The translations under genes were made by a program, and so were the position numbers. Below, one piece after another: positions 37,244 through 45,278 of a stretch of 47,453 nt of DNA (position 1 is the stretch's first letter; every line of letters begins with the position of its first letter). The notes below the pieces were generated by a model. That model did not search any database. It was not told where the DNA came from and saw only the letters and a program-made list of their open reading frames with translations. Source of the DNA: Anaerolineales bacterium (GTDB lineage: Bacteria > Chloroflexota > Anaerolineae > Anaerolineales > Villigracilaceae); the NCBI GenBank assembly GCA_014860745.1, contig JACZJC010000019.1, positions 1 through 47,453 on the forward strand, written 5' to 3'.

Positions 37244-38257
37244 CTACTTCCCATACCTCTTCCTGATCTCCGGCAAAAAATACTCCTCAAAAAACCGATC
37301 CACATCATATTCAGGTTTCCAGCCCCAATCTTTTCGGGCGCGGGAGTCGTCCACATCTTCGGGCCACGAGTCCACAATCCCTTGCCTGCGCGGACTTGGC
37401 TCAAAGGTGATATTTGCATCGGCGAATGCATTCACCGCCCGCTGGCGAAACTCCTCGGCAGTGATGGCAAACGCCGCCACGTTATAGACATTGGTTGTCA
37501 ATTTCTCGCGCGGCGCATCCATGATCATCATCAGCGATTTGATCGCATCGGGCATGGCCATGAACGAAATTTTCGTGTCCGCGCGCACGAAGCAGGAATA
37601 GGCTTTTCCCTGGGCCGCCGCATGCAGCATCTCCGGACCGTAATCACTTGTGCCGCTGCTCGGCAATGTAAAAGCGGAGATCAGGCCGGGGAAGCGGATC
37701 GCTCGAAAGTCCAGCATGACCGGGGGTTTTTCATCCAAATGTTTCTGGCCGTAATATTTGCTGTAATACATCCCCAGTTTCTCGCAATATAATTTATTAC
37801 ACCCATACATCGTGTGCGGATTATCCCAATCCTCCTCCTTCACTGAACCCGCATTTTTCTTCGCTTCAATATTCGGCATCCCATATGCGGCAATCGAACT
37901 CGGGAACAAAAACTTCACCGACTTGCCATACTTCTCCGAACGATACGCCGCCAGCATCAGCAGCTGCATCGTCCCTTCCACATTGATGCGGTGCGCCTCT
38001 TCCGTAGCAATCTCCGCTTTCGATGAAAGCGAAGCCGCAAGATGGAAAATAATATCGAAATCGTAATCGTAGAAAGTTTTTATCTTGTAAACCAGATCCC
38101 CCTGCACATGTTCCGCCGAAAGATTTTTGATCGAATCCGGCAGCGGCATCATATCAGAGGTAACGATGCGATACCCACCCTTCTTCGATAATTCCTGCAC
38201 GAGCGCCTGACCAATTTCACCACACGCACCTGTCACCAGCACCTGCTTTTCGCTCAT
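37244..38257 (-). CDS. NAD-dependent SDR epimerase/threonine dehydrogenase-like
   Basis: A 337-residue extended short-chain dehydrogenase. It has the Rossmann glycine motif VTGACGEIGQALV, the HLAASLS segment, SSIAAYG and the catalytic YGCNK (Tyr-X3-Lys). The arrangement, including FRAIRFPGLIS, resembles the UDP-galactose-epimerase-like L-threonine 3-dehydrogenase group, but nucleotide-sugar epimerases cannot be excluded. ATG 38257 has an AGGAG Shine-Dalgarno. It appears to be a single-gene unit. Confidence 0.85.
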   Translation of the reverse strand: MSEKQVLVTGACGEIGQALVQELSKKGGYRIVTSDMMPLPDSIKNLSAEHVQGDLVYKIKTFYDYDFDIIFHLAASLSSKAEIATEEAHRINVEGTMQLLMLAAYRSEKYGKSVKFLFPSSIAAYGMPNIEAKKNAGSVKEEDWDNPHTMYGCNKLYCEKLGMYYSKYYGQKHLDEKPPVMLDFRAIRFPGLISAFTLPSSGTSDYGPEMLHAAAQGKAYSCFVRADTKISFMAMPDAIKSLMMIMDAPREKLTTNVYNVAAFAITAEEFRQRAVNAFADANITFEPSPRRQGIVDSWPEDVDDSRARKDWGWKPEYDVDRFFEEYFLPEIRKRYGK

Positions 38258-38352
38258 GGCCTACTCCTGGTATGCTAGAATAACGTTCACTTAATTTTAC
38301 GACATTATAAAAGAATTGATGTCACCAAATGCCCATGATATTTTCTACCCTC

Positions 38353-38446
38353 ATGTCATTGCGAGGGCGATGCTCTATCGCCCGAAGCAATCTCCAACTC
38401 AACGATAGATTGCTTCGCCGGACTGTCGTCCTTCTCGCAATGACAT
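38353..38446. repeat. Palindromic repeat element, ATGTCATTGCGAG family
   Basis: Outer arms ATGTCATTGCGAG (38353-38365) and CTCGCAATGACAT (38434-38446) are perfect complements. Inner arms CGAAGCAATCT and AGATTGCTTCG and a GGGCGAT/ATCGCCC hairpin lie between. A truncated copy is at 43033. The word family TGTCATTGCGAG is familiar from dispersed palindromes in other bacteria. Confidence 0.85.
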
Positions 38447-39192
38447 TATTAACTTCGTGCGCACAACTGGATGCGATACTTGCCACACCCACACCCATTC
38501 AGCCGACAGAAACCCCGCCTCCCACTGCGACCATAAACTGGTTCCCGCCATCGGCCACTCCCACACTGAAAACTTTATCGACCAAGTCCCCCACCCCCGA
38601 AATGCGCCCCGGCCTCGGCCAAGAGATCATCACCGACGATTTCTCAGACCGCTCCGTCTGGGACATTGCCGCCTCCAGCGAAGCCAGCGCGGATATAAAA
38701 AATAACCGCCTCACCCTTTCCGTTCAAAGCAAAGTCTATATGCTCAGCTTGAGAAATGACCTCGTGCTAACAGATTATTACGCCGAGATCACCGCCCGCC
38801 CCAGCCTGTGCCGGGGCGAAGATAATTATGGCGTTCTCATCCGTGCCAGCGCCGCGTATTATTATCGTTTCGTCCTTGCCTGCAACGGGACCGCTCGCGC
38901 GGAAAGAATCAGCGGCGGGACTCGCCTTATCTTGCAGCAACCTCTCGCCAGTGGAGACGTCCCGCCCGGCGCGCCGGGCGAAGTCCATATGGGCGTCTGG
39001 GCCGTGGGCCGTGAAATGCGCCTGTTCCTGAACGGTAGATTCCAGTTTAGCATTATTGACCCAAGCTTTCCAAGCGGCAGCTTCGGCGTCTTCGTCCGCT
39101 CTGTGGGAGAGACTCCCGCTGTTGTCTCCTTTTCCGATCTCACCATTCAAAGCGTCGATTATATTTTGCCGACACAGACATTGATTCCGTGA
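38353..39192 (+). CDS. Lipoprotein with LamG-like domain; signal peptide within a repeat
   Basis: A lipoprotein with lipobox LLTSC, a Thr/Pro-rich linker and a C-terminal beta-sandwich-like domain (LamG/DUF1080-type, DDFSDRSVWDIA at its start). The start lies inside a 94-base palindromic repeat (38353-38446). The arm of that repeat encodes most of the hydrophobic core of the signal peptide (LLRRTVVLLAMT). ATG 38353 opens the repeat; TTG 38410 would give a standard 17-residue signal and is a strong alternative. No Shine-Dalgarno is seen for either. Confidence 0.7.
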   Translation: MSLRGRCSIARSNLQLNDRLLRRTVVLLAMTLLTSCAQLDAILATPTPIQPTETPPPTATINWFPPSATPTLKTLSTKSPTPEMRPGLGQEIITDDFSDRSVWDIAASSEASADIKNNRLTLSVQSKVYMLSLRNDLVLTDYYAEITARPSLCRGEDNYGVLIRASAAYYYRFVLACNGTARAERISGGTRLILQQPLASGDVPPGAPGEVHMGVWAVGREMRLFLNGRFQFSIIDPSFPSGSFGVFVRSVGETPAVVSFSDLTIQSVDYILPTQTLIP

Positions 39193-39258: not shown

Positions 39259-39348
39259 GTACCGCAAGATTCTTGTCCTGAGCGTGTTGAAGGGTATCTT
39301 GCGCAAGAGCAGCATAAACCCCCATTCGGGGACGATGTGTTGCGGTAC
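39259..39348. repeat. Imperfect palindromic intergenic repeat
   Basis: GTACCGCA (39259-39266) and TGCGGTAC (39341-39348) flank a 90-base segment with AAGAT/ATCTT pairing and the word CCTGAGCGTGTTGAAGGG, a type seen in dispersed repeats. The 224-base gap it sits in has no gene. Confidence 0.6.
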
Positions 39349-40410: not shown

Positions 40411-41208
40411 ATGGAATCTACAAAAGGAAAGCCAGCCTCACGATCCCCCAAAAAACCGCGCCTGCCGAATGCATTCACCTCCACCCTGGGTGTGGCCATT
40501 TTGCTGGCGACTCTTTTCACTGCATGGACTCCAAACAGCCTGTTTGCCAGCAACCTGCGGGAACAGATGCGGTCGATCCTCACGCCTCAGCCCGGACCGA
40601 ATGCTGTCACTTCACCCCAGCCGCAGTTACGCATTGGCATTGTGGCCGGCCACACCGGCAACGATTCGGGAGCGGTTTGTTTGGACGAAAACGGCCAGAC
40701 GGATTTAACCGAAGTGGATGTGAACCTTTCGATTGCCAGCCTGGTGCGCGATAGCTTGATGGCGAAAGGGTATCTGGTAGACTTGCTAAATGAGTTCGAT
40801 ACGCGCCTGAACGGTTACCGCGCTGTGGCGCTGGTATCCATTCATAATGATTCCTGTGAATTTATCAATGACGAAGCGACCGGATTCAAGGTGGCGGCCT
40901 CGCTGGAAACGCGCGACGTGAACCGCGCTCAACGCCTGACCGCCTGCCTGACAGATCGTTACCAGCAGATTACCGGGCTGACCTTCCACGCCAACAGCAT
41001 CACTTCAGATATGACCGAGTATCACGCTTTTTCTGAAATCGACCCGAACACCATTACAGCCATTATCGAAACTGGTTTCTTGAACCTTGACCGCGACATT
41101 TTAACCAAGCAGACCAGCCGGGTGGCTGAGGGAGTGACGCAAGGCATTTTGTGCTTCATTAATAATGAAAGCGTGCTGCCAACAGCCCTGCCTACCCTGA
41201 CACCATGA
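40411..41208 (+). CDS. N-acetylmuramoyl-L-alanine amidase (Amidase_3)
   Basis: A 265-residue protein with an N-terminal membrane helix (about 20-42) and an Amidase_3 domain. The zinc site and catalytic residues are complete: H81 in AGHTGND, E101 in LTEVDVN, H145 in SIHNDSC and E220 in IIETGFLN. It probably cleaves the bond between MurNAc and the stem peptide outside the membrane. It overlaps the next gene by four bases (ATGA). Cell-wall remodelling with the following transpeptidases is the likely role. Confidence 0.9.
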   Translation: MESTKGKPASRSPKKPRLPNAFTSTLGVAILLATLFTAWTPNSLFASNLREQMRSILTPQPGPNAVTSPQPQLRIGIVAGHTGNDSGAVCLDENGQTDLTEVDVNLSIASLVRDSLMAKGYLVDLLNEFDTRLNGYRAVALVSIHNDSCEFINDEATGFKVAASLETRDVNRAQRLTACLTDRYQQITGLTFHANSITSDMTEYHAFSEIDPNTITAIIETGFLNLDRDILTKQTSRVAEGVTQGILCFINNESVLPTALPTLTP

Positions 41209-41930
41209 GCAAATCAACGCCTCCCCTGCCAAAGAAAAGGTTTCATCCGGCTCTCGTCATAACCCTGCTGGCGGCTGCCACCGTCATCGCGGCATGGACA
41301 GCGACTTCGTCCGCTGCGCTTGGGCTGGTGGAAGTGACTGCAGTTCCCACGCATGCTCAATCCTTTGCCTTCGCAGAGATCGCAAAGCCCACATATACGG
41401 CGCTGCCAACGGCAACTGCCCTGCTTCCAACCCAAACACCGACAAATACACCCGAGCCTATGGTACAGGCCGAGATTGTTGATGTGTCTGTCAGCGAATA
41501 TATCCCGCCGGTGCTGCAAAACGATTACGAACAGGCTCCGATCTCCTACGGCGGGAACAAATACATCATCGTGGACATCTCTGAACAGCATATGTACGTC
41601 TATGATGGTGATGCGCTTGTTTTCAGTTTTGTCGCTTCCACCGGGATGAACAATGGCACCCGCGTCGGAAGTTTCTCTGTGCTGGATAAGATTCCCAACG
41701 CCTACGGCGCCACATGGAATATTTGGATGCCCAACTGGCTTGGCATTTACTGGTCTGGAACTCTTGAAAATGGAATCCACGCCCTGCCGATCCTGCCAAA
41801 TGGCGGGCAATTGTGGGCCGGTTATCTCGGTGTGCCGATTTCCTATGGGTGTGTGGTGCTGGGCGTTTATGAGTCTCAAGTGTTGTATGACTGGGCGGAA
41901 GTTGGCACGCCGGTTGATATTCGGAGGTAG
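41205..41930 (+). CDS. YkuD L,D-transpeptidase-like, atypical active site
   Basis: A 241-residue protein with an N-terminal helix, a Pro/Thr linker and a C-terminal YkuD domain. The catalytic motif reads ISYGCVVL with Cys216 present, but the His of the usual SHGC is Tyr214. An upstream NGIHALPIL supplies the other conserved His. This could lower or alter activity. It is the first of four consecutive YkuD genes and overlaps the amidase by four bases. Confidence 0.85.
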   Translation: MSKSTPPLPKKRFHPALVITLLAAATVIAAWTATSSAALGLVEVTAVPTHAQSFAFAEIAKPTYTALPTATALLPTQTPTNTPEPMVQAEIVDVSVSEYIPPVLQNDYEQAPISYGGNKYIIVDISEQHMYVYDGDALVFSFVASTGMNNGTRVGSFSVLDKIPNAYGATWNIWMPNWLGIYWSGTLENGIHALPILPNGGQLWAGYLGVPISYGCVVLGVYESQVLYDWAEVGTPVDIRR

Positions 41931-42035
41931 GAGTTTCAGGCGAAAACCACCACCCTCCAATGACAGGACGAAAGGCGATAAAGGTTTATAATTATCGTTG
42001 TCGCGTTTAATAGTGGACTTTCCCAAAGGTGAAAC

Positions 42036-43028
42036 ATGAACGAACCTCTTTCAAAACTACGCAAATCCATGGCTCAACAAAACGGGAAAATGCAGCAGGG
42101 TGGCGGCGACTTGGGAAACCGGAATCAGTCGAAAGGTCCGGTACGAAGCGGGATGCCAAAAAGTGGGAAAACTAAAAAGAAAAGTTATTTGATTCTTCCT
42201 ATCCTTTTGATTATGGTGGGGTGTGCGGTCTTTTTATTTGCTGCCTGGTCCGCGGTGAATTCGCCAGTACTGGCTTCCATTTTGAGCCTTTCCTCCGCGC
42301 CTCAGGAAATTCAACGAGGGCCAATACAATCCTTTGCGCAGGTGGATATTGCCAAGCCGACCTACACTCCGGTTGTGTCTCAGCCCTTGGCAGAGGTTCC
42401 GGTTGTGCAAGTGGTTCAACCAACTGCGACCTTCACATCCGTCCCTGTTGCAGTGGATACGGCTCCGCCAGAGATCGCTGCGCCGCTACTTGATGTGGTC
42501 ATCCTGCCAACGGATACGCCATTCATTGAACCAGCACCTGCAACAATCGTCCCGGAAGTGGCAGGCGATACCGGCGTGGTCTCGGCAGAGATCATTCCTG
42601 ATACGCCCACAGCCGAATATGTCCCGCCGCCCACCTCAGTGGCGTCCATCCCCCCGGCAGTGACAAGTTACAGCGGCGCGCATTGGATCGATGTCAATCT
42701 TTCGGAACAGCGTTTGTACGCTTACGCAGGCGATACACTTGTCAATTCGTTCGTGGTTTCGACCGGCACATGGCAAACACCGACTGTGACCGGGAAATAC
42801 AAAATCTGGATCAAGCTCCGCTCTGCTCCGATGTCCGGGCCCGGCTATTATTTACCCGATGTCCCATATATCATGTATTTTTATAAAGGGTACGGCCTGC
42901 ATGGCACCTACTGGCATAACAACTTCGGTACGCCGATGAGTCATGGTTGTGTGAATCTCACCATCCCGGATGCGGAATGGGTTTATAACTTCTCTCAGGT
43001 CGGGACGGTCGTGAACGTGCATTACTAG
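42036..43028 (+). CDS. YkuD L,D-transpeptidase
   Basis: A 330-residue protein with a cytoplasmic basic start, one membrane helix (about 50-75), a long Pro/Thr/Val-rich linker and a canonical YkuD domain: GLHGTYWHNNFGTPMSHGC with Cys305. These enzymes form 3-3 peptidoglycan crosslinks or attach proteins. An AAAGGTG ribosome site precedes ATG 42036 after a 105-base gap that contains TATAAT. Confidence 0.9.
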   Translation: MNEPLSKLRKSMAQQNGKMQQGGGDLGNRNQSKGPVRSGMPKSGKTKKKSYLILPILLIMVGCAVFLFAAWSAVNSPVLASILSLSSAPQEIQRGPIQSFAQVDIAKPTYTPVVSQPLAEVPVVQVVQPTATFTSVPVAVDTAPPEIAAPLLDVVILPTDTPFIEPAPATIVPEVAGDTGVVSAEIIPDTPTAEYVPPPTSVASIPPAVTSYSGAHWIDVNLSEQRLYAYAGDTLVNSFVVSTGTWQTPTVTGKYKIWIKLRSAPMSGPGYYLPDVPYIMYFYKGYGLHGTYWHNNFGTPMSHGCVNLTIPDAEWVYNFSQVGTVVNVHY

Positions 43029-43032
43029 CGCC

Positions 43033-43068
43033 ATGTCATTGCGAGGTGTACTCTTTTTCCAATGACGT
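43033..43068. repeat. Truncated copy of the ATGTCATTGCGAG repeat
   Basis: ATGTCATTGCGAGG at 43033-43046 repeats the outer arm of the element at 38353. A degenerate right arm, CAATGACGT (43060-43068), follows closely. It fills the gap between two transpeptidase genes. Confidence 0.7.
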
Positions 43069-43078
43069 GTAACTCCAA

Positions 43079-44119
43079 ATGAAATTAAATAACTTATCAC
43101 GGAGAGACTTTCTAAAACTGAGCGGTGTGGGGCTGGCAGGGTTGCTGGCACCCCCGCTCAGTTTTCTTTTTGACGATCCCTTCGCAGCCCAACAAGGACG
43201 AGTGACTACGCGCACGGTTTGGGTATACAACCATCCAAGCAGGCAAGCAGAAAAAGTCAGGTTCTATCAGCGGGATACAGTTTTGAGCATCAATAACACA
43301 GCCGTCAGCGATGAACTGGATGCGCACAACCGCATCTGGTATCAAGTGGGCACGGAACAATATACCGAAGGCTATGTCTACTCCGGCGACATCCATCCCG
43401 TGCGAACCATCCTCAACACCCCGCAAATGGCAATCCAAAAAGACGGCCTGCTTGCCGAAGTCAGCGTGCCGTATACCGACGCGCACAAAGAACCAAACAA
43501 CGAGTCCGATGTGGCCTATCGCATGTATTATGAGACCACCCACTGGGTCAAGGAAGCAGCGACAAATCCACAGGATGGGCAGGTTTGGTACAAAGTGCGT
43601 GACGATAAATGGGATAAATATTATTACGCCCGCGCGGAACACATCCGCATCATTTCGGCGGATGAACTTGCTCCACTCTCGCCGGAAGTCTCAAACAAAG
43701 ACAAAAAAATACAAGTCCGTCTCGAACAGCAGATCGTAATCGCCTACGAATACGACAACCCGGTCTTTGTTACGCCCGTATCCACAGGAGGCAGATTGCG
43801 GAGCGGAACCTACACCACACCGCAGGGCAACTTCCTCACCTACTACAAACGTCCTTCGCGTCACATGGCTGCAGGCGATATCGCCGCCAGCGGGTTCGAC
43901 CTGCCCGGCGTCCCCTGGGTGCAATACATCACAGAAAACGGAATTTCCTTCCATGGCACCTTCTGGCACAATGACTTCGGCCGGCCGCGCTCGCACGGCT
44001 GCATCAACCTCGCTACAAACTCTGCGAAATGGCTCTACCGCTGGACCTCGCCGCAAGTAGCCATGAACAAGGAATTTTCCTTCGGTGGTCTGGGCACCAA
44101 AGTTGAGATCCTCGAGTAG
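43079..44119 (+). CDS. YkuD L,D-transpeptidase with Tat signal
   Basis: A 346-residue protein with a twin-arginine signal (LSRRDFLKLSG) and helix, two SH3-like N-terminal segments and a C-terminal YkuD domain with ISFHGTFWHNDFGRPRSHGC (Cys308). It is closely similar to the next gene in architecture and motif. Export by Tat is unusual for the family and is shared by the two. Confidence 0.9.
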   Translation: MKLNNLSRRDFLKLSGVGLAGLLAPPLSFLFDDPFAAQQGRVTTRTVWVYNHPSRQAEKVRFYQRDTVLSINNTAVSDELDAHNRIWYQVGTEQYTEGYVYSGDIHPVRTILNTPQMAIQKDGLLAEVSVPYTDAHKEPNNESDVAYRMYYETTHWVKEAATNPQDGQVWYKVRDDKWDKYYYARAEHIRIISADELAPLSPEVSNKDKKIQVRLEQQIVIAYEYDNPVFVTPVSTGGRLRSGTYTTPQGNFLTYYKRPSRHMAAGDIAASGFDLPGVPWVQYITENGISFHGTFWHNDFGRPRSHGCINLATNSAKWLYRWTSPQVAMNKEFSFGGLGTKVEILE

Positions 44120-44243
44120 TACCGAAGACACATTCTCTAAACTTCTCCTCAACCTTTATGATTACGAAGTGCCGCAAAAAAACTAAATTATGATTATTTT
44201 CTAATAATTTCCGTAGAAATTATAGTGATTTAAAAACAAGCGG

Positions 44244-44249
44244 TACAAT
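44244..44249 (+). promoter_or_regulatory. -10 element of a leaderless gene
   Basis: TACAAT is followed by six bases and the ATG at 44256. No Shine-Dalgarno is present. Confidence 0.45.
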
Positions 44250-44255
44250 CGAATC

Positions 44256-45278
44256 ATGACCATCTCCCAGGTTTCGCGCCGCGACTTTTTAAAACTATCC
44301 GCTTCGGGCTTGCTCGGGCTGGCTCTCTCCAAACTGGGCATTCGCTCCGCCCTAGCCGCTCCACCCGCCTCGCAGGGACGCATCACCTGGAGCGGCATTC
44401 CCCTATACGATGCGCCCTCCCCTGCCGCTAATAAACTATTCTTATTCCCGATCGACAAAACCGTGGAACTACTCGGAGAAGTGGAAGGCGAAGGCATTGA
44501 TAACCCGTTCAATAAAACCTGGTATCAACTGGATGGCGGTTACACCTATTCCGGCTGGGTGCAGCCCGTTGAAACCAGGTATCAAAAACCATTCTTTGAG
44601 ATTCCCACCGAAGGAAAACTTGCCGAAATCAGCGTTCCCATGAGCCTGACCTATCGTGCCACTACCAATTACGCCAAAAATGCTCACCGCCTGTATTACG
44701 GAACTACGCATTGGGTCAAGAAAGTCGTCGTCACCCGCGATGAAAAAAGCGTCTGGTACGAAATCTTTGACAGCGAATTGAAAAAATCCTTCTACGTCCC
44801 ATCCTACAACATGCGCCTCATTCCCGACGTGGAGCTGACTCCGCTTTCTCCGGAAGTTCCCGCAGCTGATAAATTCATCCACGTCGATCTTGCCACCCAA
44901 ATGGTCGCCGCCTTTGAAGGCGAAAAAATGGTGCTTTCCGCCCGCTGTGCCAGCGGGCAAAGAGGTACAGACACGCCAAAAGGTGAATTCACAACCTATC
45001 ATAAAGGCCCATCCATCCACATGACCAACCAGGGCGATGCGGTTCAGAACGTCTACAACCTGCCAGGGGTTCCCTGGTGCTCGTTCTTCACCGGCGCAGG
45101 CCATGCTTTTCATGGAACATACTGGCACAATGACTATGGACGTCCGCGCAGCCATGGCTGTGTGAATTTGCCGACAGACATCGCCAAATGGGTCTATCGA
45201 TGGACAATGCCCGTCGTTCCCCCCAATGAGGATTATCTGCATTTACCCGGACAGGGAACGCGGGTGCAGATTGTATAA
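44256..45278 (+). CDS. YkuD L,D-transpeptidase with Tat signal
   Basis: A 340-residue paralogue of the preceding gene. It has a Tat signal (VSRRDFLKLSA), an SH3-like N-terminal part and a YkuD domain with HAFHGTYWHNDYGRPRSHGC (Cys302). The two proteins align over their full length by eye, which indicates gene duplication. It has its own promoter-like TACAAT, so it may be expressed separately. Confidence 0.9.
   Translation: MTISQVSRRDFLKLSASGLLGLALSKLGIRSALAAPPASQGRITWSGIPLYDAPSPAANKLFLFPIDKTVELLGEVEGEGIDNPFNKTWYQLDGGYTYSGWVQPVETRYQKPFFEIPTEGKLAEISVPMSLTYRATTNYAKNAHRLYYGTTHWVKKVVVTRDEKSVWYEIFDSELKKSFYVPSYNMRLIPDVELTPLSPEVPAADKFIHVDLATQMVAAFEGEKMVLSARCASGQRGTDTPKGEFTTYHKGPSIHMTNQGDAVQNVYNLPGVPWCSFFTGAGHAFHGTYWHNDYGRPRSHGCVNLPTDIAKWVYRWTMPVVPPNEDYLHLPGQGTRVQIV

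Follow-up and report, generated by a model that had tools for sequence, protein, structure and literature searches.

The window analysed here is a whole stretch of 47,453 nucleotides from an Anaerolineales bacterium of the Chloroflexota (family Villigracilaceae; assembly GCA_014860745.1, contig JACZJC010000019.1, positions 1 to 47,453 of the forward strand). At 38353-38446 it holds a palindromic element that lies within the open reading frame (ORF) of a predicted lipoprotein, in the part that encodes the signal peptide. The features of the locus are as follows.

38294 to 38305, plus strand: ATTTTACGACAT box, upstream of the ORF, conserved among the orthologues in the genus
38329 to 39192, plus strand: lipoprotein ORF, 287 amino acids
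38329 to 38457, plus strand: signal peptide (by sequence), 43 residues from the first ATG, composed of native MPMIFSTL, an element-coded piece and LLTS
38353 to 38446, plus strand: palindromic element, 94 nt, with a 92-nt core TGTCATTGCGAG...CTCGCAATGACA, within the lipoprotein ORF
38353 to 38365, plus strand: left outer arm, read ATG TCA TTG CGA G (M S L R)
38366 to 38382, plus strand: variable hairpin A, 7 pairs and a 3-nt loop, differing among copies
38383 to 38417, plus strand: central stem, 38383-38393 paired with 38407-38417 (CGAAGCAATCT / AGATTGCTTCG), 13-nt loop
38420 to 38431, plus strand: variable hairpin B, 4 pairs
38434 to 38446, plus strand: right outer arm, read CTC GCA ATG ACA (L A M T)
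38458 to 39192, plus strand: Cys +1 and mature lipoprotein, a predicted CBM66-like jelly roll

Comparison of the arms agreed with the first-pass annotation, which had described a 94-base nested palindrome with perfect 13-base outer arms: the outer arms (38353-38365 and 38434-38446, 13 nt) and the inner arms (38383-38393 and 38407-38417, 11 nt) each pair with no mismatch. The predicted RNA fold of the element, at -47.1 kcal/mol, was much more stable than the mean of its shuffles (-22.2; z -8.5), none of the 200 shuffles equalling it. The predicted fold runs in the order outer stem, hairpin, central stem and second small hairpin, and is cloverleaf-like. The exact 12-mer of the arm occurs at three sites in the window, these being the two arms of the element and a site at 43034.

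The lipoprotein ORF stays open across the entire element. Its in-frame start candidates are ATG 38329, ATG 38335, ATG 38353, TTG 38359 and TTG 38410, and because of an in-frame TGA at 38317 there is no earlier start. The lipobox has its Cys codon at 38458, and the 12-nt core of the right outer arm ends 12 nt ahead of it. Translation bore out the initial observation that the right half of the element codes for signal up to AMT just before LLTSC, as this half encodes RLLRRTVVLLAMT, then LLTSC. That observation had traced the signal core to the right half, which does supply it, but the scope was too narrow, as the element encodes residues 9-39 (MSLRG...LLAMT) out of the 43 that make up the signal peptide. 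The signal of a lipoprotein has a basic n-region, a hydrophobic core and a lipobox, [LVI][ASTVI][GAS]C; by sequence, the candidate pieces here are DRLLRR, TVVLLAMTLL and LTSC. The mature lipoprotein matched no Pfam family, and its structural model, with a mean predicted local distance difference test (pLDDT) score of 75, was closest to CBM66 carbohydrate-binding modules. Named relatives of the lipoprotein come from Anaerolineales and other Anaerolineae, almost all of them metagenome-assembled genomes (MAGs).

The element is one copy of a dispersed repeat. The count of copies that had been suggested at the outset gave 36 exact half-sites in the window's genome against 0 in the reversed control, and whole copies with perfect arms were present in 45 of the 57 genomes of the genus (0 in the control). 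The 74 copies listed, which for some genomes comprise the first sites only and from which the lipoprotein copy of G015 was left out (G and L numbers are our labels for genomes and loci), were 73-98 nt long under pattern limits of 68-98 nt, and copies in the window's genome measured 79-125 nt. With one copy and its flanks as the query, 26-59 matches were obtained in each of six relatives, where up to 40 candidates per genome were scored and flank matches were counted. In an alignment of 20 copies the outer and central stems were almost invariant and the hairpins varied, hairpin A showing compensatory change at two pairs; the right arm reads ...GCAATGACA in 19 of these copies and has ACGAC in the remaining one. 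By crude ORF calls, 12 of 16 checked copies of the window's genome fall between ORFs. Searches at E 0.01 found no match in plasmids (query, the G041 element) or in phages (query, the window's element). The truncated copy that the first-pass annotation had reported in the window was located at 43034, where an exact TGTCATTGCGAG arm is followed by a decayed remainder.

43034 to 43067, plus strand: truncated, decayed element copy, intergenic, 5 nt after a stop codon

This copy sits between two genes of a four-gene row (41205-45278) resembling secreted L,D-transpeptidases, in which 43079-44119 matches YkuD and the other three genes were assigned by eye from their translations.

The lipoprotein was present in 51 of the 57 genomes of the genus (E <= 1e-40). 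Sixty loci were read, 53 in the genus (including the truncated G014 and two from G048) and 7 outside it. With up to 2 mismatches allowed, an arm was found in the signal region of 27 of the 51 assessable loci in the genus, from which G006 (the lipobox finder failed) and G054 (too little upstream sequence) were excluded, and in none of the 7 loci outside. All 22 left arms, and 29 of 31 right arms, are in one phase to the Cys codon. The two out-of-phase right arms (G063, G042) sit upstream of the start codon. At these two loci (L070, L071) the element is represented by a degraded copy ahead of the lipoprotein start, outside the coding phase.

The arms keep this phase while the length between them and the lipobox varies, the distance from left arm to Cys ranging from 53 to 155 nt and the inner parts being read in differing frames. 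The distance from the ATTTTACGACAT box to Cys takes all three values modulo 3, and the 74 listed copies, a few of which may be coding, are distributed near-randomly in length modulo 3 (30, 20 and 24 for remainders 0, 1 and 2). Based on the kept phase of both arms despite the length variation, translation very probably begins no later than the left arm and passes through the element. The in-frame position and the conserved phase thus uphold the earlier proposal of coding capture of a dispersed repeat, and the phase of the left arm argues against translation starting downstream of 38446, which had been named as the case against it.

The frame used by the lipoprotein is distinctive in its residues. 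Among 33 copies (13 from the window's genome, 20 from G041) read in both orientations, 17 of 66 readings were open in the lipoprotein's frame, the sole frame whose right end is hydrophobic (over the last 8 residues, hydropathy averaged 0.77 versus -2.16 and -1.84). Every right arm that lies within 60 nt of Cys reads LAMT (24/24), and five rows have additional right arms at 27 and 3 nt from Cys.

Orthologues in the genus that are free of the element have their own, unrelated hydrophobic stretch and lipobox, and a hydrophobic stretch and lipobox of their own were also seen by eye in all 7 orthologues outside the genus. The distance from box to Cys was 95 nt (7 rows) or 96 nt (6 rows) in 13 of the 25 element-free rows of the genus, which belong to several clades, and most element-free signals share a start like M[MTI]F. 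Element-bearing rows retain a few native codons on the left side and mostly 4 or 5 on the right, but none of the native core. Orthologues with the same signal peptide and no repeat, which would have spoken against capture, were not found among these loci, the element-free ones carrying a different signal. As these native signals exist, the repeat appears to have replaced a signal and not to have created one, and the initial claim that it created an export signal does not stand. The possibility that element-free signals are eroded elements was not borne out: at the -12/-15 place, G017, G053, G055, G043, G052 and G013 match the right arm at 7-8 of 12 positions, and an outgroup row also matches at 7.

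The distribution of the element was examined on a gene tree of 58 rows (G030 and G035 dropped) that were labelled by hand as having the element (22), remnants (6) or neither (30, of which 5 are outgroup); the last label includes the other-repeat rows G005, G043 and G052, plus G054. Presence of the element required 11 parsimony changes (bootstrap range 10-12), at least 9 of them forced by well-supported branches. Left arms lie at offsets of 35, 44/45, 49, 53/54, 60 and more, up to 66 nt from the box, and second arms at offsets to 72 nt, small differences among which may be leader indels. We read the pattern of presence and absence as repeated gain, in which the replacements would have been separate events.

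Other repeats occupy the same slot. The in-frame insert of G043 matched 49 sites of that genome and the one of G005 matched 9, and the insert of G003 and G050 has 3 and 18 matches in their respective genomes (the query's own site is counted in each case). A family TGGTCGAGTAG...TATCGAGACC has 5-46 exact pattern matches in each of seven genomes; in G044, G016 and G066 the lipoprotein locus is itself among the sites matched, with variants seen by eye in G046, G057, G048b and G021. Palindromic inserts in the slot were also seen by eye in G052 and G065. In G053 (L064) an unrelated palindrome was noted by eye upstream of the lipoprotein gene, which is not in the near relative G011. At two intergenic sites (L013, ~1501-1597; L009, ~1501-1584, with L178-L191) relatives hold the element, an unrelated repeat, or little; the signal stretch therefore seems to behave as intergenic spacer does, under a frame constraint.

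In-frame copies were sought in other genes by a scan of 51 half-sites that demanded at least 50 open codons on each side, so that N-terminal cases such as the lipoprotein were uncounted. Eleven long frames span half-sites, and 8 of these were put to Pfam, the set omitting L016 plus strand, L209 minus strand and L216. Four had family matches flanking or across the element, L210 had a match on one side only, and L009, L198 and L213 matched no Pfam family. The named genes with in-frame copies are listed below.

L011, 850 to 2025 (G000:C9:36654-37829): alanine racemase with an in-frame palindrome
L004, 1130 to 3040: FAD-oxidase/4Fe-4S protein with an in-frame copy
L214, 824 to 1999: PD40 beta-propeller protein with an in-frame copy
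L209, 2 to 973: class IV aminotransferase (G041) with an in-frame copy

The alanine racemase of the window's genome matched TIGR00492 (346 bits) in two stretches around residues 164-197. The FAD-linked oxidase with 4Fe-4S domains, in which the copy is short, and the PD40 protein are also in the window's genome. Alanine racemase was identified in 53 of the 57 genomes, and the best 30 loci were read; these were the best matches to an insert-holding query and so lean to insert-bearing loci, eight genomes that matched in two pieces skipping the insert not being among them. An arm was present at 17 of the 30 loci, and the spacer was a multiple of 3 at all 30. The right arms of the racemase (n=16) read PRND in 10 cases and LAMT in 6, versus LAMT in 24 of 24 for the lipoprotein (Fisher p 9e-6, with kinship not corrected), and a quick tree of the racemase shows 3 changes of frame and 9 of presence. 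The use of two frames in the racemase and of one in the lipoprotein is our strongest indication that the signal depends on the hydrophobic reading. Residues 161-196 of the racemase model, which is poor (mean pLDDT 52), scored below 50 and lie between a strand and a helix. An aminotransferase (L016) and RibF (L012) have N-terminal extensions made by the element, which were set aside as possible start-codon choices. A 19-residue query for further proteins in which a lipobox follows the right arm matched in 14 of the 57 genomes, and its hits with long frames outside the lipoprotein (L166, L175 and L176) gave no convincing exported protein.

Based on the repeat family, its in-frame position and conserved phase, the native alternative signals, the pattern of presence and absence, the other families in the slot and the copies in other genes, all of which can be read in the sequences, we consider it highly probable that a dispersed palindrome was captured in frame, replaced the native signal core and now makes the signal of the lipoprotein. 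The element would be a dispersed palindrome of this Anaerolineales genus, mostly intergenic and occasionally inserted in frame in genes. Its insertion between the start codon and the lipobox would have replaced the native hydrophobic core, and the ribosome would read across it. In the frame used, the right half would give a basic and then a hydrophobic stretch (RLLRR..VVLLAMT), which with the native LLTSC would make a usable signal; the start codon used and a working signal are what we infer here. All residues before Cys would be cleaved and the mature protein left unaltered, and we propose that this is why the stretch tolerates repeats and why the slot is filled by several families.

Several observations weigh against this explanation. 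The best 10-residue hydropathy mean was slightly lower in element-made signals (2.37, 22 rows) than in element-free ones (2.70, 23 rows), and a scan for sigma-70 promoters was empty. The 19-residue query gave no second lipoprotein with an element-made signal. The phase counts come from related sequences and are not independent events. The remaining 12 element-free rows do not share the 95-96 nt spacing, box-to-Cys being 66-101 nt in 7 and 134-185 nt in 4, the latter carrying other inserts or unexplained length, and G054 being too short for the measurement. In addition, the two intergenic sites compared showed no evident target-site duplication.

We speculate further, with appreciably less confidence, that the stretch from start to lipobox is a landing pad, in which at least four unrelated palindromic families (one more being nested) would have replaced the core in frame many separate times in one genus. 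The TGTCATTGCGAG family would then be a portable signal core by virtue of its basic-then-hydrophobic frame, and would belong to a class of coding palindromes, like RPE-4/6/7 of the Rickettsia palindromic elements (RPEs), that spans phyla.

The strongest alternative is one ancient insertion in the ancestor of the genus, followed by repeated loss and erosion, by gene conversion between elements and by swaps of the 5' end between species; we lean against it, while granting it a real chance of being correct. In almost all rows the right arm stops 12 or 15 nt short of Cys, and this near-constant junction, which is not an obvious prediction of separate insertions, suits one old insertion with turnover equally well. 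A lone right arm stands beside the same other repeat in G003 and G050, and the body tree pairs G050 with G071 (99/93). Repeat type and upstream identities conflict with the body tree in five close species: G003 and G050 are 90.0% identical upstream and 84.0% in the body, and G050 and G071 are 88.5% and 90.4% identical, as exchange of 5' ends between species would produce, and such exchange could spread one insertion. In the excerpts of the work on R. japonica, a common origin of RPE-4/6/7 at the same site was favoured, with hot spots not excluded (PMC3767692). However, element-free signals from several separate clades are alike in length and sequence and seem to be ancestral, and a native core, once replaced, would be hard to restore. 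The left arms lie at several offsets from the box, each at the border of the element (although the small differences may be leader indels), and most element-free rows yielded no clear remnant of a right arm.

An improbable alternative is that the element is a hairpin in an untranslated 5' leader, with the start within it at TTG 38410 (MLRRTVVLLAMTLLTSC) or at another late position. The predicted hairpin is highly stable, TTG 38410 would yield a short lipoprotein-like signal, and by eye there is no Shine-Dalgarno-like sequence ahead of 38329 or 38335. Yet all 22 left arms, which would lie upstream of such a start, keep phase despite differences in inner length and frame, unlike the upstream box. 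In the alanine racemase it is plain that a copy of this family was captured and is translated, and even with a late start the right half would be signal peptide.

It is less probable still that the hairpin has been retained for regulation through the mRNA (attenuation or stability) and that coding is incidental. A strong predicted structure close to the 5' end of the gene fits such a role, but several orthologues with an eroded or truncated palindrome (G004, G061, G067, G008) or with an unrelated repeat still keep the frame and a hydrophobic stretch. No terminator-like site was found, and Rfam gave one sub-threshold match only (18.9 bits versus a gathering score of 80), which we regard as chance. 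An assembly or binning artefact can hardly be credited, as the arrangement recurs across many assemblies with the frame kept every time, even though most named relatives are MAGs and repeats invite misassembly.

The lipoprotein gene has a divergent neighbour, and just 3' of it (39259-39348) is an inverted repeat, GTACCGCAA/TTGCGGTAC, with 72 nt between its arms, perhaps a different dispersed repeat.

37244 to 38257, minus strand: NAD-dependent epimerase gene, divergent neighbour of the lipoprotein gene

The orthologues of this gene offer a natural series of signal peptides rebuilt from dispersed repeats under visible constraints of frame and hydrophobicity, with the cytosolic alanine racemase as an internal control. 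It makes two questions testable: whether same-site coding insertions reflect hot spots or a single old event, and what minimum suffices for a functional export signal. For annotators, it indicates that repeat-coded N-termini (MSLRG...LLAMT) can be genuine.

The literature compared below is cited from excerpts of the papers. REP/BIME elements (repetitive extragenic palindromes and bacterial interspersed mosaic elements) are likewise dispersed intergenic palindromes, of 20-40 bp (PMC3733652); the element described here is longer (73-125 nt), three-armed and also found inside genes. Miniature inverted-repeat transposable elements such as ERIC, RUP and NEMIS resemble it in being short, with terminal inverted repeats, many copies and occasional in-frame ORF fusions (PMC10969869, PMC2759123); at the two intergenic sites, the element showed no evident target-site duplication. 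A repeat-made signal peptide has been described before, in YPO1552 with the enterobacterial RU-2 (Delihas 2007, PMC2759123), with a weaker prediction for a second RU-2 locus, YPO2495 (PMC2759123). With this precedent, and with recurrence in the genus, in other repeat families and in other genes, the capture is not a unique case. As excerpted, the YPO1552 case differs in comprising identical alleles of one main locus, in not being a lipoprotein and in lacking genus-wide recurrence and a comparison of frames. A nematomorph paper stresses, in its excerpted text, that few coding palindromes have been reported (PMC6649704), and in the open-licence literature we found no description of this palindrome family or of recurrent repeat-made signal peptides.

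The closest likeness is to the RPEs, which are dispersed palindromes of about 100 nt that lie between genes and in frame in unrelated genes (PMC3767692, PMC10969869). RPEs are inserted at the same site among orthologues, sometimes by members of different groups (PMC3767692), as seen here at 27 of 51 lipoprotein and 17 of 30 racemase loci. RPE-4/6/7 have ATGAC in the palindrome (PMC3767692), which here is in the right arm of 19 of the 20 aligned copies, and in size our family is at the short end of the RPE range (~100-150 bp). RPE-coded peptides are further characterised by a solvent-exposed position in the protein. The differences are that the host belongs to the Chloroflexota and not to Rickettsia or Wolbachia, that the element makes a cleaved signal peptide in one constant frame, and that unrelated repeat families share the slot. 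As the element lies outside the Rickettsiales and was compared with RPEs by description and not by sequence, we call it RPE-like and do not file it as an RPE. In-frame palindromes in genes have so far been described, in these excerpts, from Rickettsia, Wolbachia and single cases elsewhere; here they occur in environmental Chloroflexota with many comparable genomes, where the element in the lipoprotein signal works like an RPE, in another phylum.
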